The position numbers were made by a program, and so were the translations under genes. Below, piece after piece: positions 6,858-13,292 of a stretch of DNA of 64,000 nt. The stretch is taken from assembly GCF_003217235.1 (NCBI RefSeq), contig NZ_QJTF01000002.1, forward strand, positions 1-64,000. Reading direction: 5' to 3'. Position 1 is the first letter of the stretch. Each line of letters starts with the position of its first letter. The notes under the pieces were generated by a model. It searched no databases. It was given only the letters and a program-made list of their open reading frames with translations, and had not been told where the DNA came from. Source of the DNA: Paramesorhizobium leguminum (lineage in GTDB: Bacteria > Pseudomonadota > Alphaproteobacteria > Rhizobiales > Rhizobiaceae).

Positions 6858-7565
6858 ATGCCGGCGAAAATCGAAAAGCCAGTGGCGGTGATAACGGGCG
6901 GTGGCCGCGGGATGGGCGCCGCGATTGCCAGGAAGCTGCATGATCGGGGCGACTCGCGCTTATGTCGCCTTCCGGCAGCGCCATCGAGTTGGCGGACGAA
7001 CTGGATGGAGTCGGCGTCAAGGGATCGGCCCAGAACCTGACCGACCTTGAAGCGCTGGTGGACGCGGCGGTGAGCAGCTTTGGCCACATCGATGCCGTGG
7101 TCAATCATACCGGCCATCCGCCGAAGGGCGACCTTCTCGACATCACCGATGAAGGCTGGGCGCTCGGCAATGAGAGATGGTGCTGAATGTCGCACGCATG
7201 GCGCGCCTGGTGACCCACTTATGTTGAAGCAGGGCAAAGGCGCGTGGGTCAACATCACCACCTTCGCGGCCTTCGAGCCGACGCTGAAGTTCCCGGTATC
7301 CTGCGCCTATCGCGCCGCGGTCGGCGCTTATACCAAGCTCCACGCCGATCGCTACGGCGCCGACAACATCCGCATGAATGCCCTTTTGCCGGGCTATATA
7401 GACAGCCTCGGCCACAAACCGGAAACGGCAGAGGACGTGCCGATGAAGCGCATCGGCACAGTGGAGGAAATCGCCGCAACTGCGGCTTTTCTGCTTTCAG
7501 ACGACGCGGGCTACATAACCGGACAGAACATTCGCGTCGATGGCGGTATCACGCGGCATGTGTGA
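6858..7565 (+). pseudogene. Frameshifted SDR oxidoreductase
   Basis: Pieces of one short-chain dehydrogenase lie in order but in different frames. The first (6858-6952) has the Rossmann motif VAVITGGGRGMGAAIA. The second (6962-7165) continues with MSPSGSAIELADEL and a degenerate NAG motif, VVNHTGHP. A short third piece reads VLNVARMARLVT. The last (from 7222) has the catalytic-loop region with SCAYRAAVGAYTK and ends GYITGQNIRVDGG. At least three indels, near 6950, 7165 and 7210, are needed to restore one frame. Because every piece keeps family similarity, this is a recent loss of function. It lies just outside the paralogue array. Confidence 0.85.
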
Positions 7566-7659: not shown

Positions 7660-8604
7660 TTATTTCAACCTTATATTGAGGTTCCCATCCTTATATATAA
7701 CAGCTGAGTCCCGATTAATTCTGGACCAAAGATAATTAGGGTCGTCATTTCCATCAATGGATAATAGCCGTTTATCGATAAAGGCGGTCAAAGAAAATGA
7801 ACTTCCTATTCCAAAGAACGTAAATCCACCTTTGTTATTTCCGTTATGCGTAACAATACTAAACAAATCCTTTTGATAAGTGTCATCAATAAAATTGAAA
7901 TCAAATAGATAAAAAATTGGACTATCATCGTCGGAAGTCGCAATAGACGAAAACTTTGCGGTACCACCATCCAAAAATGACATAGAGTCCATATACGCCC
8001 ATGAATTATCGCTCAATGATAGATCAAAATTCATTATATCTATGCTTTTTTCGCCTGCATTTGGCGTTATATGGCAGTAACTTTTTCCAGTAACGGAAAT
8101 TTTTGCATTATCTATTTTTAGATATGAAAAATCACCAAACTGTGTTCCCAGCATTTGAAGCCCGCTTCTATTGCTAATATTAATTTCTACATTTCCAAAA
8201 ACCACTCTATTAACGGAAATTCCCAAACCTTCCCGCTCATGTAACGGATCAGAATTATCTCCGGATCCGTTTGCGTGAGCCACCTCCATTATCACTTTTA
8301 CCGCTAGGTCACCGAATGCTTCGCCAATAGCCAAGGATCCTGGCGAAGCAACCCTAAGCGACCCTGTATCTGGAAGTATCTTGAACACGGTTTCGTCGAT
8401 GGGAGGGTTCGGGGTCGGACTGCCCCAAACCGTCATCCCACTGTCGGAGACGTCTATAAATAACTCCCCGGTCGTATTGAGCCCAAACCCTTCATTTTTA
8501 TTAAAAGACTCGGCTGGCCCCGTAAGAGGAGTATTCATATTGCCGTCAGCGGGTGTAAATGTTTGATTTGAATTCGGATCCCAAACAAACTTTGCCTTAT
8601 TCAT
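7660..8604 (-). CDS. Unknown protein, divergent member of the VW-PN paralogue array
   Basis: I do not recognise this 314-residue family. The ATG at 8604 has a strong AGGAG six bases upstream. It is a distant paralogue of the three genes that follow (8947-12138). Shared segments are the N-terminal VWDPNSNQTF and GPAESFNKNEGF, the central FSYLKIDNA and CHITPNAGEKSIDI, and the C-terminal SIDGNDDPNY followed by SRIN and a final N-I-R-L-K. There is no signal peptide and no membrane segment. Alternating short hydrophobic strands broken by Asn, Asp, Gly and Ser suggest an all-beta, possibly beta-solenoid fold. Codon use is AT-richer than in the flanking genes. Unlike its neighbours, it has neither the shared promoter nor the shared hairpin. 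Confidence 0.75.
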   Translation of the reverse strand: MNKAKFVWDPNSNQTFTPADGNMNTPLTGPAESFNKNEGFGLNTTGELFIDVSDSGMTVWGSPTPNPPIDETVFKILPDTGSLRVASPGSLAIGEAFGDLAVKVIMEVAHANGSGDNSDPLHEREGLGISVNRVVFGNVEINISNRSGLQMLGTQFGDFSYLKIDNAKISVTGKSYCHITPNAGEKSIDIMNFDLSLSDNSWAYMDSMSFLDGGTAKFSSIATSDDDSPIFYLFDFNFIDDTYQKDLFSIVTHNGNNKGGFTFFGIGSSFSLTAFIDKRLLSIDGNDDPNYLWSRINRDSAVIYKDGNLNIRLK

Positions 8605-8838
8605 TTTAATCTCCTAAATTAATATATATGTTTACACACCGTATTGGTGCGATAACGCTCAATAAGTGTGCGGATCACATGCAGAATTAGAGATATTGCC
8701 AAGTAGGCACAACAACGCTGTAATCCAGAAAATACGAATACTCCCTCGCTGAAAAATTAAATAAGCTATAAAATAATGATACCGCGCATTTTTAAATATA
8801 CCATCCAATCTCTTTTATAGCAAAAAAAGACACTCAAC
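8605..8838. other. AT-rich spacer upstream of the first array gene
   Basis: This AT-rich stretch holds no open frame of note. It presumably carries the promoter of the leftward gene starting at 8604, but I see no element matching the promoter conserved in front of the other three array genes. Confidence 0.4.
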
Positions 8839-8896
8839 TCCGCCGGCGGCAATAAGGTGGAAGCGGATGGGAACGGCCGGGAAACGCGCGGCGATG
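8839..8896. repeat. GC-rich spacer repeat of the array (copy 1)
   Basis: This GC-rich block, containing GCAATAAGGTGGAAG and GGGAACGGCCG, recurs nearly unchanged at about 11124-11176, each time directly before the array hairpin. The copy before the hairpin at 10007 is truncated to a few bases. It marks the duplication units and contrasts with the AT-rich genes on either side. Confidence 0.7.
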
Positions 8897-8938
8897 GCAT
8901 TTTCCGGCATTTGCTCAGAAAACAAATGCCGGAAATGC
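8897..8938. repeat. Array hairpin, copy 1
   Basis: An inverted repeat of about 16 bp with one bulge (core CCGGCATTTG / CAAATGCCGG) and a 9-base loop lies right after the stop of the gene ending at 8947. No T-run follows on the minus strand, so it may stabilise the mRNA 3' end or act as a REP-like element rather than as a classic terminator. Near-identical copies follow the other two tandem genes. Confidence 0.8.
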
Positions 8939-8946
8939 ATCAATCA

Positions 8947-9840
8947 CTATTTTTGAAACCGCAGCCTTACAATCATATCGCCATTTTGGTATATATTTTG
9001 ATTATCAATTCTCGAATTGACATAGGATCGATCGCTGTTACCATCAATGGCTACCAATTCCAGCTGAAGCATGTAGTTAAACTGGATGGCATTGCCAATC
9101 CCGGCAAGTACAAAATTTCCTCTGTTATTTTTCCCGTCATAGGTGGTGAAATTAAACATGCCCTTTGGATAATTTTGAGATTCCTCTCCCAGGAAATCGA
9201 TCCCGGAAAGCCTGACGGTTGGGGTGTCCGGCTCGCCGATGGTTTGAAGATTGAATTGCACACTAGCGCCTGGCTGCACGGACACGCCATCCAGCTGCGC
9301 CGAGGAAGTATCGGTCACCATAAGGTAAAAATTTTTCGCTATATCTATTTTCTGTTCACCGAAACTTGGCGTTATATGGCACCCCCCATTATCCTCAACA
9401 GTAATTACGGCATTGTCTATCTTCAAATATGAGAAATTGGGCCCCAGCATTTCAAGACTGCCGCCGAAAATCTGCATATGCGTATTGGAAAAAAAGACCT
9501 CGCGCACAAAAAGCTGTAGATTCTGACTGTCAAGCAGACTTATGTGTGTTGTTACGGTAGTCTCGCCAAGGACTAACTTTCCAGCCGACACCATCGTCAG
9601 CGATGACATTGCATTAGAGAGCATAATACCAGTGCTTTTATGGGGGGGATTCTGTTGCTGTATCAGTTGCTTTCCCCATGCGGTTGTTCCGGCATCCGTT
9701 ACTGTTAACGACAACCCCGCGTCTACGAAACACGAAAAGCCGCCGTTTTTATTGAACGTCGCAGCGGGCCCACTCAGGCTCGTGTCTACCTTAAAGTCTT
9801 GAGTGGCATACGGTTTCCAGATGTACTGTTCTTTTTCCAC
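8947..9840 (-). CDS. Unknown protein, VW-PN array paralogue 2
   Basis: The product has 297 residues and belongs to an unrecognised family. I place the start at the GTG at 9840 because it aligns with the ATG of the next two paralogues and follows CAGGGATTTTAACA in all three; a further-upstream TTG would add 19 residues that look untranslated. Conserved blocks are EQYIWKP, AATFNKNGGF, the WGKQLIQ-QNPP stretch, FSYLKIDNA, CHITPSFGEQKIDI, QLDGVSVQPGA, LSGIDFLG, YDGKNNRG, LAGIGNA, IDGNSD and the C-terminus IYQNGDMIVRLRFQK. There is no signal peptide, transmembrane helix or catalytic motif. Sequence by eye places it between the divergent first gene and the closely related third and fourth. Confidence 0.8.
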   Translation of the reverse strand: MEKEQYIWKPYATQDFKVDTSLSGPAATFNKNGGFSCFVDAGLSLTVTDAGTTAWGKQLIQQQNPPHKSTGIMLSNAMSSLTMVSAGKLVLGETTVTTHISLLDSQNLQLFVREVFFSNTHMQIFGGSLEMLGPNFSYLKIDNAVITVEDNGGCHITPSFGEQKIDIAKNFYLMVTDTSSAQLDGVSVQPGASVQFNLQTIGEPDTPTVRLSGIDFLGEESQNYPKGMFNFTTYDGKNNRGNFVLAGIGNAIQFNYMLQLELVAIDGNSDRSYVNSRIDNQNIYQNGDMIVRLRFQK

Positions 9841-9895
9841 TGTTAAAATCCCTGATTGAAATTTCCAAAAAAATAATAGAGCACTTACATTTAGC

Positions 9896-9924
9896 AATGT
9901 AACGTTGAATATTTAAACGTGCAA
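9896..9924 (-). promoter_or_regulatory. Candidate promoter of array paralogue 2
   Basis: On the minus strand TTGCAC and TACATT are separated by 17 bases (containing ATTCAACG). The same pair recurs at the same place in front of paralogues 3 and 4 (TTGCGT/TACATT), about 55 bases before the start codon. The conservation argues that each array gene has its own promoter. Confidence 0.55.
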
Positions 9925-9930
9925 CACTTA

Positions 9931-10006
9931 TTGCGAGAAATTCAATCCTCCACCACATGGCGGATCGAAGAGGGTTAAAAAATCGTGTCCCACCCACCCG
10001 GCAATG
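9931..10006. repeat. Array spacer repeat with a scrap of the mfnB-folB 3' end (copy 1)
   Basis: This spacer repeats at about 11057-11119, and its right-hand original is at 12233-12290. At 9973-9990 it contains GGTTAAAAAATC followed by a T/C-rich run that matches the last codons and stop of the gene at 12273-13292. The duplication unit therefore began inside that gene's tail. Confidence 0.65.
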
Positions 10007-10044
10007 GCATTTTCCGGCATTTGCTCAGGAAACAAATGCCGGAA
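10007..10044. repeat. Array hairpin, copy 2
   Basis: This is the same inverted repeat as at 8897-8938 (core CCGGCATTTG / CAAATGCCGG), located just downstream of the gene ending at 10057. Here the outer arm is partly lost (GGAACTG instead of GGAAATG), so only the inner stem pairs fully. Confidence 0.75.
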
Positions 10045-10056
10045 CTGAATCAATCA

Positions 10057-10968
10057 CTATTTTTGAAACCGCAAAGTTAAAATCATATTTCCATTTTGGT
10101 ACATATTGGTGGTATTAAGTCTCGAATTGATAAAGGTTGGATCTGTGTTACCATCAATGGATATCAATTGCAGCTGACGCATGGCGGTATATTGGTAGGC
10201 ATTGCCAATCCCGGCAAGTACAAAGGTTCCTCTATTATTTTTCCCGTCATAAGTCTGGAAATTAAGCATGCCCTTTGGATAATTTTTAGCTTCCGGCCCC
10301 AGGAAATCGATACCGGAAAGCCTGATGGTTGGGTAGTCCGGCTCGCCGTTGGCCAGAAGATTAAATAGCACCTTAGCGCCTGGCTGCACCGACACGCCAT
10401 CCAGTTGCGCCGAGGAAATATCCTGCACCTGCATGAGAAAATTAGTAACTATATCTATTTTTTTCTCACCGAAACTTGGCGTTATTTGGCAAGTACTATT
10501 ATCCTGAACATCAATACTGGCATTACCTATATTCAAATATGAGAAATTGTCCCCCAGCATTTCAACATTGCTTTCGGCAATAGCCATTTCCATATTGGAA
10601 AAAAAGACCTCGTGCACAAAAAGCTGCAGATTCGGAACGTTCAAGTTCTTAGAACCCAACACGTTTATTCGTGTTTGCACTGTATCCTCGCCAATGACTA
10701 ACTTTCCAGGCGACACCATCTTCAACGACGCTTGGGGCGTGATCGTGAAATAAGTAGTCTTGGTGGGGGGATTCTGATCCTGTATCAGTTGTTTTCCCCA
10801 TGTGGTTGTTCCATCATCCGTTACCGTTAACGACAATTTAGCTGATGTTCCTACGGTACAATTAAAGCCGCCGTTTTTATTGAACGTCGCAGCGGGCTGA
10901 CTCAGGGCCGTGTCTACCGTAAATTCCTGATTGGCATTAGGATTCCAGACGTATTGATCTTTTTCCAT
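10057..10968 (-). CDS. Unknown protein, VW-PN array paralogue 3
   Basis: This 303-residue protein is very similar to paralogue 4 and belongs to no family I know. The ATG at 10968 (MEKDQYVWNPNANQEF) follows CAGGGATTTTAACA; an in-frame TTG at 11025 is a less likely start. Compared with paralogue 2 it carries a few extra residues in the first third (TVGTSAKLSLTVTDDG and NLNVPNLQLFVHE). The middle has STCQITPSFGEKKIDI and QLDGVSVQPGAKV, and the end has MYQNGNMILTLRFQK. Only two cysteines are present, near residues 35 and 160. No export signal is seen, so a cytoplasmic location, or export by another route, must be assumed. Confidence 0.8.
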   Translation of the reverse strand: MEKDQYVWNPNANQEFTVDTALSQPAATFNKNGGFNCTVGTSAKLSLTVTDDGTTTWGKQLIQDQNPPTKTTYFTITPQASLKMVSPGKLVIGEDTVQTRINVLGSKNLNVPNLQLFVHEVFFSNMEMAIAESNVEMLGDNFSYLNIGNASIDVQDNSTCQITPSFGEKKIDIVTNFLMQVQDISSAQLDGVSVQPGAKVLFNLLANGEPDYPTIRLSGIDFLGPEAKNYPKGMLNFQTYDGKNNRGTFVLAGIGNAYQYTAMRQLQLISIDGNTDPTFINSRLNTTNMYQNGNMILTLRFQK

Positions 10969-11023
10969 TGTTAAAATCCCTGATTGAAATATCCAAAAAT
11001 ATGATGGAGCACTTATATCCGAC

Positions 11024-11052
11024 AATGTAACGTTGAATACTTAAAAACGCAA
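11024..11052 (-). promoter_or_regulatory. Candidate promoter of array paralogue 3
   Basis: TTGCGT and TACATT are spaced by 17 bases on the minus strand, identical in position to the elements before paralogues 2 and 4. The start codon is about 56 bases downstream. Confidence 0.55.
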
Positions 11053-11056
11053 CACT

Positions 11057-11176
11057 TATTGCGAGAAATTCAGTTCTCCACCACATGGCGGATCGAAGAA
11101 GGTTAAAAAATCGTGTCCCACCCGCGCGGCAATAAGGTGGAAGTGTATGGGAACGGCCGAGAAACGCGCGGCAATG
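11057..11176. repeat. Array spacer repeat with mfnB-folB tail scrap and GC-rich block (copy 2)
   Basis: This is the fullest spacer copy. It first carries the segment matching the mfnB-folB 3' end (GGTTAAAAAATC at about 11101-11112), then the GC-rich block also seen at 8839-8896, and then leads into the hairpin at 11177. It joins two duplication units. Confidence 0.65.
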
Positions 11177-11218
11177 GCATTTTCCGGCATTTGTTCAGGA
11201 AACAAATGCCGGAAATGC
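11177..11218. repeat. Array hairpin, copy 3
   Basis: Same inverted repeat as copies 1 and 2, with both the inner stem and the outer GCATTT arm intact. It lies nine bases beyond the stop of the gene at 11227-12138. Confidence 0.8.
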
Positions 11219-11226
11219 ATCAATCA

Positions 11227-12138
11227 CTATTTTTGAAACCGCAATTTTAAAATCATATCTCCATTTTGGTACATATTGGAGGTATCAAGTCTCGAATTGA
11301 TATAGGATGGATCGGTATTACCATCAATGGCTACCAATTGCAGACTACGCAGGGCGCTAAGTTCGAAGGCATTGCCAATCCCGGCAAGTACAAAGGTTCC
11401 TCTGTTATTTTTGCCGTCATAAGTAACGAAATTAAACATGCCCTTTGGATAATTTTGAGATTCCGGCCCCAGGAAATCAATGCCGGAAAGCCTGATAGTC
11501 GGTGTGAACGGCTCGCCGTTAGCCTGAAGATCAAATCGCACCTTAGCGCCTGGCTGCACCGACACGCCATCCAGCTGCGCCGAGGAACTATCCTGCACCT
11601 GCATGAGAAAATAAGTCACTATATCTATTTTTTTCTCACCGAAACTTGGCGTTATTTGGCAAGTACTATTATTCTGAACATTAATACTGGCATTGCCTAT
11701 ATTCAAATATGAGAAATTGTCCCCCCGCATTTCAACATTGCTTTGGGTAATAGCCATTTCCATATTGGAAAAAAAGACCTCATGCACAAAAAGCTGCAGA
11801 TTCGGAACGTTCAAGTTCTTAAAGTCCATCACCAATATTCGTGTTTGTACTGAATCCTCGCCAATGACTAACTTTCCAGGCGACACCATCTTCAGCGAAG
11901 CTTGAGGCGTGATCGATAAAATAGTTGTCTTGGTGGGGGGATTCTGATGCTGTATCAGTTGTTTTCCCCATGTGGTTGTTCCATCATCCGTTACTGTCAA
12001 CGACATTTTAGCTGATGGTCCTACGGTACACTGAAAGCCGGCATTTTTATTGAACGTCGCAGCGGGCTGACTCAGGTCCGTGTCTACCGTAAATTCCTGA
12101 TTGGCATTCGGATTCCAGACGTATTGTGCTTTTTCCAT
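11227..12138 (-). CDS. Unknown protein, VW-PN array paralogue 4
   Basis: This 303-residue protein is the array member nearest to the mfnB-folB fusion gene and probably the founder copy, because its upstream spacer abuts the intact fusion gene. The ATG at 12138 opens MEKAQYVWNPNANQEF. Most positions match paralogue 3; differences cluster in short stretches (for example LVMDFKNLNVP against NVLGSKNLNVP, and FELSALRSLQ against YQYTAMRQLQ), the pattern expected of duplication followed by patchy divergence or gene conversion. The fold again looks all-beta. No function can be assigned. Confidence 0.8.
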   Translation of the reverse strand: MEKAQYVWNPNANQEFTVDTDLSQPAATFNKNAGFQCTVGPSAKMSLTVTDDGTTTWGKQLIQHQNPPTKTTILSITPQASLKMVSPGKLVIGEDSVQTRILVMDFKNLNVPNLQLFVHEVFFSNMEMAITQSNVEMRGDNFSYLNIGNASINVQNNSTCQITPSFGEKKIDIVTYFLMQVQDSSSAQLDGVSVQPGAKVRFDLQANGEPFTPTIRLSGIDFLGPESQNYPKGMFNFVTYDGKNNRGTFVLAGIGNAFELSALRSLQLVAIDGNTDPSYINSRLDTSNMYQNGDMILKLRFQK

Positions 12139-12193
12139 TGTTAAAATCCCTGATTGAAATTTCCAAAAATATGATAGAGCGCTTACATTTGGC

Positions 12194-12222
12194 AATGTAA
12201 CGTTGAATATTTAAATACGCAA
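12194..12222 (-). promoter_or_regulatory. Candidate promoter of array paralogue 4
   Basis: TTGCGT and TACATT have a 17-base spacer on the minus strand, matching the elements before paralogues 2 and 3. It lies only about 50 bases past the stop of the upstream fusion gene. Confidence 0.55.
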
Positions 12223-12272
12223 CACGCATTACGAGAAATTCAATTCTCCACCACTTGGCGGGTCGAAGAAGG

Positions 12273-13292
12273 TTAAAAAATCCTATCCCTCTTCCCTACG
12301 CGCCGCTCGATCTCCACGCCAACCCCACCCGGCCCGAGCTCGAGCTTTTCCACCCGCACCACCACCCGCATCACGCGGGGATGCGCCAGGATAAGCGTCG
12401 CGATCTCCTCGGCCAATGTTTCCGAGAGTTCCACATGCCCGCGCGCGACGATGCCCCTGATCCCATCCATGATCAAATCATAGGAGACGACGTGGCGCAT
12501 CTCCCTTGGTGCATTGGTCACACGCCGCACATCCGCCGTCACGTCGAAGCGCACCTTTTGCGGTTTGCCGTGCTCGAAGCTATAGGCTCCGATATGGACC
12601 GGCAGCACGAAGTCACGCACGAAAATCTTGTCCGTTCCGAGGTCCGCATCCTCGGGCTCGGAGACTTTACGCTTTGGCGCGCGCTTCTGCTTCTCCGGTA
12701 TCAGCGCCCTGATCTTGGCCATTCCCGCCGCATCAAGCCCGCTGAAACCGAGAAAATCAGTATTGTAGACCAAGAGGCGCGGAATATCCGGCGCTTCCAG
12801 ACCGCCCGCCACGCCGGCGATCATTGAATAGCCGTGAGCAGCCTCGATGAACGAGCCTATCCGATCGAGGCTTATATGGTCCAGCAATCGCCCGGCTGAT
12901 ATCGTATCCAGCATGATTCCATGAAACCCGGCGGCGGCGAAAGCCGCGGGCAAATCATCCGGATAGACATGCTCCGCATAGAGCACGCCGATGAGTTTCG
13001 TGCTTGCCGCCAGCCCGGCCAGCGCCTTGACGTCAGCAATCAGCCGTTTCGATGGAAGAAAGCCGCTCCTGATATAATCGACGCCTGCCGCCGCGATTTC
13101 CTCCGCTTGGTCCAGATCACCGCAAAGCGCGCTCACCGTCCGCGCGCCCGCGATGAGCTTGACCGTATCGCGGATCGTTTTGAGCGCCAGGGCGGTTCCC
13201 TCTGCGCTCGTGAGGTCGATGATATCGGCCCCGCCTTTCAGCGCGGTTTCGGCTTCTTGGCGGTCCCGCACACTCGCCAGCATCTTTGTCAT
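12273..13292 (-). CDS. MfnB-like (5-formylfuran-3-yl)methyl phosphate synthase fused to a FolB-like domain
   Basis: The 339-residue protein has two domains. Residues 1-215 match the DUF556/MfnB TIM barrel, which makes the furan precursor of methanofuran/methylofuran from glyceraldehyde 3-phosphate. Residues 225-335 are a dihydroneopterin-aldolase (FolB) domain with the expected Glu (SFEH), Tyr (VVSYD) and Lys (RVEKLE). The MfnB half keeps Asp 26 and Asp 129, but the positions I align with its three catalytic lysines are Thr 28, Arg 75 and Ala 133, so the original chemistry may be lost. The gene lies 58 bases downstream of pqqE on the same strand and is probably part of that operon. Such fusions occur in bacteria with C1 (tetrahydromethanopterin) pathways. 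Confidence 0.85.
   Translation of the reverse strand: MTKMLASVRDRQEAETALKGGADIIDLTSAEGTALALKTIRDTVKLIAGARTVSALCGDLDQAEEIAAAGVDYIRSGFLPSKRLIADVKALAGLAASTKLIGVLYAEHVYPDDLPAAFAAAGFHGIMLDTISAGRLLDHISLDRIGSFIEAAHGYSMIAGVAGGLEAPDIPRLLVYNTDFLGFSGLDAAGMAKIRALIPEKQKRAPKRKVSEPEDADLGTDKIFVRDFVLPVHIGAYSFEHGKPQKVRFDVTADVRRVTNAPREMRHVVSYDLIMDGIRGIVARGHVELSETLAEEIATLILAHPRVMRVVVRVEKLELGPGGVGVEIERRVGKRDRIF

Follow-up and report, generated by a model that had tools for sequence, protein, structure and literature searches.

Classical surface adhesins, such as the autotransporters, SRRPs and tapirins, carry an export signal together with an anchor or a translocator; SRRPs are described (PMC6973325) as O-glycosylated adhesins that are exported via an accessory Sec system. 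The DNA analyzed here is a stretch of 64,000 nucleotides of Paramesorhizobium leguminum, described as a soil-type bacterium (contig NZ_QJTF01000002.1, positions 1 to 64,000; hereafter the window), in which four intact paralogous genes, P1 to P4, follow one another in head-to-tail orientation at positions 7660 to 12195 of the minus strand. Structural models indicate that their products are small right-handed parallel β-helix proteins belonging to an unnamed family; the fold is known already, and the family is absent from the libraries searched and from the literature titles and abstract beginnings listed. In contrast to the classical adhesins, the family has neither a recognized leader nor a match to such adhesin families in Pfam. 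The most probable role of P1 to P4 is that of non-enzymatic, adhesin- or lectin-like proteins that bind a ligand, and this tentative reading is given a probability of roughly 0.42.

Results

An initial annotation of the window had proposed four consecutive paralogous genes of about 297 to 314 residues on the same strand, and this was borne out by the open frames and by protein comparison. P1 matched P2, P3 and P4 at E values of 3e-173, 1e-125 and 4e-47, respectively, indicating that the paralogy is not due to chance, and identity among the four proteins spans 38–85%. The array DNA is, as had been noted, AT-richer than its surroundings, with a GC content of 0.42–0.45 compared to approximately 0.6 for the window, and a third-position GC content (GC3) of 0.37–0.51 compared to 0.72–0.81 in nine other window genes. 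Regarding the motifs said to be shared, FNKN-GF, FSYL-I, ITP--GE--IDI and IDGN-D are present in all four proteins; however, the S proposed to lead the last of these occurs in P2 and P4 only, and GKNNRG and the LRFQK end are found in three of the four, P4 being the exception. The array end, given as 12195, included an upstream TTG, and the start behind a Shine-Dalgarno-like stretch is at 12138. As a whole, the observation made in the initial annotation is confirmed.

Searches of Pfam, NCBIfam, PHROGs and PADLOC returned no convincing match for the four window proteins, nor for the 21 or 23 family members used as queries; the best library match of a single member was to Calycin_like (E = 3.7e-4, 1 of 21 members). 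The best E values in sequence searches of the PDB were 0.67 and 0.12, and none of the literature titles and abstract beginnings listed described the P1–P4 family. These data agree with the family having been called unrecognized, as no strong match to a characterized family was obtained by sequence in any of these resources. AlphaFold2 models of P1 (pTM 0.81) and P4 (pTM 0.84) agree on a right-handed parallel β-helix, with stacked three-stranded coils and a hydrophobic core, and the β-solenoid fold suggested beforehand is upheld by both models and by their structural matches. Among those listed, the top structural matches comprise several surface adhesins, and others are enzymes; several of the matched proteins are presumed to be extracellular. 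Identity to the adhesins is low, at 11% for the binding region of an SRRP from Lactobacillus reuteri (5nxk), 8–11% for tapirin (6n2b) and a possible adhesin domain of Caldicellulosiruptor (4wa0), and 7–12% for the adhesin-like wall proteins Awp1 and Awp3b of the yeast Candida glabrata (7o9q and 7o9p), and the window proteins differ from the SRRP region in being stand-alone and having no recognized leader, and from the tapirins likewise in the missing leader. The family consensus consists of a conserved N-terminal cap (F-x-W-x-P ... F-N-K ... F-T-M), a variable β-helix core, and a likewise conserved C-terminal cap (K-G-x-F-N-F ... G-x-F ... I-D-G). In a loose alignment of the core, no acidic, basic or histidine residue is common to 70% of the 23 members; this sets the family apart from pectate-lyase-like enzymes (PL6 alginate lyases and polygalacturonases), and the earlier statement that a catalytic motif is absent holds. 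One family member, a protein of 639 residues (locus L024, 4650–6566), carries an IPT/TIG domain at residues 546–622 (E = 4.5e-15).

The spread of the family is very patchy. A profile search of the own genome found nine family genes, four in the array, two on contig C11, and one each on contigs C29, C3 and C1 (ten rows are listed, P1 being split into two). Members are present in five of the six genomes of the genus, and in 7 of 394 genomes of the taxonomic family, those five included; among the genus mates, G001 is Paramesorhizobium deserti A-3-E, a strain from desert soil that has the gene in a single copy, G005 is Mesorhizobium sp. RMAD-H1, and G002 is a strain filed as Brucella endophytica. 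The own genome measures 3.73 Mb compared to 4.9–5.6 Mb in the five genus mates, yet it is the one with most members found. Relatives are also present in Burkholderia arboris and B. lata, and 6 of 65 genomes in the genus of B. lata match, one of these holding a broken copy in two pieces on a contig with masked stretches. In the order sample, 1 of 397 genomes matched a narrow window profile, and with a profile lacking the Burkholderia rows the matches were 2 of 385 genomes in the class sample and 1 of 398 in the phylum sample; the order match, the phylum match and one class match are the own genome. The second class match (L053, G1143:C48:3632-4129) is partial and weak (E = 8.4e-6), and comes from a genome of 0.9 Mb that belongs to a different family. 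Profile searches of genome contigs gave no confirmed relative with the window alignment and five loci with a mixed alignment. In plasmid records, P2 and the L049 protein each matched B. arboris only, the B. arboris protein matched itself and B. stagnalis, and the L022 protein had no match; in phage records neither the L022 nor the B. arboris protein had a match, and three IMG/VR scans gave no confirmed relative. In a tree of 23 members the four window genes form one clade (100/99); support is weak at the deepest forks (67/66), and of the 20 inner branches 8 are open.

The N-termini of P1 to P4 are not hydrophobic (best 12-residue Kyte-Doolittle mean 0.49) and the proteins have no membrane-like stretch (best 19-residue mean 1.36). 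Likewise, no signal-like core was found by the 12-residue mean in the N-terminal 40 residues of the 23 family rows, the highest value (1.57, in the L051 row) being due to a start placed too far upstream; 2 of the 23 rows are just above a 19-residue mean of 1.6 (1.62 and 1.74). By inspection, AGG or GGAG precedes the start by no more than 22 bases in 22 of the 23 rows, the start of the G004 member being unsure. An in-frame stop lies one to six codons upstream of the start in P4 (three codons before its ATG), G000C3, G005 and G002b, and there is therefore no space for a longer N-terminus in these four. In P1 to P3, 24 open codons precede the start, and a TTG is located 19 codons upstream of it; in the absence of a stop, a longer N-terminal form of these may exist, although this form has no charged start region. 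As judged from sequence, the family proteins look leaderless, and for the four window proteins hydropathy and start-site reading support the claim that none shows a signal peptide or transmembrane helix.

Selection was measured as omega (Nei-Gojobori, with 95% bootstrap range) among the window copies and between presumed orthologues, which were assigned from the tree or from flanks. The orthologue pairs gave omega values of 0.29 (0.20–0.38) for B. arboris and B. lata, 0.21 (0.15–0.29) for P. deserti and Mesorhizobium sp., and 0.18 (0.11–0.29; 239 of 300 bootstraps finite) for G615 and G666; P1 and P4 gave 0.16 (0.11–0.35), with dS saturated and 184 of 300 bootstraps finite. These data indicate that the family is maintained by purifying selection between presumed orthologues. 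For the youngest copies, omega was 0.60 (0.35–1.04) for P1–P2, 0.76 (0.54–1.04) for P1–P3 and 0.76 (0.56–1.09) for P2–P3, and estimates from a four-way alignment were 0.60, 0.82 and 0.77 among these three and 0.16–0.19 against P4. A dN/dS near 1 among the copies, named in the initial annotation as evidence against it, is thus half the case: P1 to P3 may be evolving neutrally, with upper bounds of 1.04–1.09, whereas P1–P4 and the orthologue pairs gave values of 0.16–0.29. Regional omega values for the N-terminal cap, core and C-terminal cap showed no significant differences, and their ranges overlap widely.

The spacers upstream of P1, P2 and P3 resemble one another, and their common stretch starts within the final codons of the 4-HFC-P synthase/FolB gene that precedes the array. 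These data indicate that P1 to P3 are in-place tandem duplications of units of approximately 1.1–1.2 kb, each with an upstream block, a ribosome-binding site and a 3' hairpin (Table 1). P4 is an older copy; the region directly before it is unrelated to the upstream regions of P1 to P3, and RNA folding compared to shuffled sequence, the source of all z values given here, revealed no hairpin 3' of P4 (z +0.5). The hairpins 3' of P1 to P3 were not called as terminators, the T-run being missing, and they may serve to end or to protect the transcript. Promoter-like matches numbered 16, compared to 10.7 (sd 3.0) in shuffles.

Arrays and differences in copy number among close relatives had been anticipated, and two sites with and without family genes were found. 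At the array site the gene order is pqqE, 4-HFC-P synthase/FolB, the array, an SDR-type frame, an OmpA-type gene, recA and alaS (names partly from reading), and G002 keeps this order but has no array; for the remaining four genus mates, the 18 kb analyzed did not include the SDR, OmpA, recA and alaS genes. The second site is flanked by a glutamate synthase/aldolase group on one side and a hydrolase gene on the other (names from reading); G002 has four family genes there, and a profile search of this stretch found none in G001, G003, G004 and G005. In the own genome the second site is on two contigs, C11 ending with two of the genes and C29 beginning with one; the flanks are shared, which suggests that the contigs join, and the site would then hold at least three genes. 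The flanks, read mostly by eye and among those listed, differ between loci, and no defense or toxin gene was recognized beside the copies whose flanks were read, with one exception in B. stagnalis. To call the array an undescribed system was too strong, as what was found is a single-gene family with no constant partner in the flanks read. The suggested immunity or defense role is unsupported, PADLOC giving 0 families for the 23 members (E 0.1) and for the four window proteins (E 10).

Discussion

The interpretation offered in the initial annotation is partly supported. A ligand-binding, adhesin- or lectin-like role is favored because of the fold, the lack of shared catalytic residues, the variable core, and the TIG domain on one relative. 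The absence of a leader is the chief argument against it. One result points in another direction: in B. stagnalis (L056, 8001–8147), a remnant matching 46 C-terminal cap residues is situated just before a long frame that reads as Tc-toxin A component-like; as a lone remnant it is weak evidence for any link.

The foremost rival is that the proteins never leave the cell and are cytoplasmic, either as leaderless β-helix scaffolds or as stress-related proteins duplicated for dosage. The ribosome-binding sequences before 22 of 23 starts, and the upstream stops that exclude a longer N-terminus in P4, G000C3, G005 and G002b, are consistent with this; however, the TIG domain and the presumably extracellular structural matches argue for a place outside, and strong divergence and presence/absence variation are unusual for housekeeping scaffolds, such that a cytoplasmic role is considered possible but somewhat unlikely. 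It is improbable that the proteins are polysaccharide-active lyases or hydrolases with a pectate-lyase-like fold, given the absence of widely shared charged or histidine residues in the loosely aligned core and of any match to a carbohydrate-enzyme family.

Being leaderless, single-gene, variable and arrayed would also suit proteins that a contractile secretion system delivers, as effectors or cargo, against other cells, and the type VI secretion system (T6SS) marker PF05591 was found in four of eight genomes tested, including the own genome. This marker is missing, however, from four of the seven family-bearing genomes tested (G004, G005, G615 and G666), and G003 has it without the family; no immunity or VgrG/Hcp gene was recognized beside the copies read, among the flanks listed, and the VgrG row in the PDB searches was not significant (E 0.67 and 0.72). 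A T6SS link was rejected because the occurrence of PF05591, a single marker, does not track that of the family; other injection machines could still be involved, and a secreted effector is judged very improbable overall. There is similarly little chance that the genes are unconstrained, decaying leftovers of phage or mobile genes. Low GC3, transposase-like frames (by reading) beside the L051 relative and neutrality not being rejected for P1 to P3 (omega 0.60–0.82 across estimates) would fit such an origin, but the four window frames are intact, presumed orthologues have omega values of 0.18–0.29, and the searches of phage records with two relatives and the IMG/VR scans came back without a confirmed relative.

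If P1 to P4 are ligand-binding proteins, the core faces of the β-helix would be in contact with a sugar polymer or with some other surface, presumably outside the cell and after export without a classical leader. New copies arise when a unit is duplicated in tandem together with its upstream block and 3' hairpin; each copy could thus be expressed alone, and young copies would then drift or diversify. A more elaborate scheme, which is unlikely to hold in full, is that of a one-gene, array-forming, leaderless binding protein, at the surface or released, whose N-terminal cap would act as the tag of an undescribed export route and whose core would switch ligands, and which would multiply in tandem, be gained and lost at fixed chromosomal sites, and pass between Rhizobiales-type bacteria and Burkholderia. 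The proteins add an unnamed family of very patchy spread to the world of β-helices, and because they pair an adhesin-like fold with no recognizable leader, whether they are located inside the cell or outside it becomes a clear and testable question. The arrays, moreover, offer a small model for single-gene units that duplicate with their own flanking signals.

Array features and neighboring genes

Table 1. Coordinates of the array genes, their flanking signals and the bordering genes in the window
Feature	Position	Strand	Remarks
P1, putative leaderless β-helix protein	11227..12138	−	303 aa, ATG start; structure modeled
P2, paralogue	10057..10968	−	303 aa, 85% identity to P1
P3, paralogue	8947..9840	−	297 aa, GTG start, 67% identity to P1
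P4, older paralogue	7660..8604	−	314 aa, ~40% identity to P1–P3; structure modeled
P1 upstream block with ribosome-binding site	12139..12282 (limits approximate)	−	Spacer alignment; starts within last codons of preceding gene
P2 upstream block, duplicate of P1 block	10969..11112 (limits approximate)	−	Spacer alignment
P3 upstream block, duplicate of P1 block	9841..9990 (limits approximate)	−	Spacer alignment
Hairpin 3' of P1	11182..11214	−	13-pair perfect stem, no T-run behind; z -5.9
Hairpin 3' of P2	10012..10044	−	Same hairpin as P1, one G-U in stem; z -2.8
Hairpin 3' of P3	8902..8934	−	Same hairpin as P1, one G-U in stem; z -5.6
4-HFC-P synthase + FolB domain fusion, upper array border	12273..13292	−	Domain matches
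SDR-type open frame, lower array border	7080..7565	+	Name from reading

In the fusion gene at the upper border, the 4-HFC-P synthase domain was matched at E = 1.7e-31 and the FolB domain at E = 4.9e-18, and the gene adjoins pqq genes (pqq names from reading). Near the B. arboris member (L055, 3638–6626) are a TP_methylase protein (E = 3e-17), which we take to resemble a borosin-type methyltransferase, and a second protein, whose match to PhyH (E = 3.1e-4) is below threshold; the TP_methylase protein was rejected as a constant partner, having no match in L056 and L090–L093 when used as query. By reading, transposase-like open frames adjoin the G666 member (L051, 7341–8590), and the B. lata member has a long, trimeric autotransporter-like open frame (L058, 13249–17088) on its downstream side.

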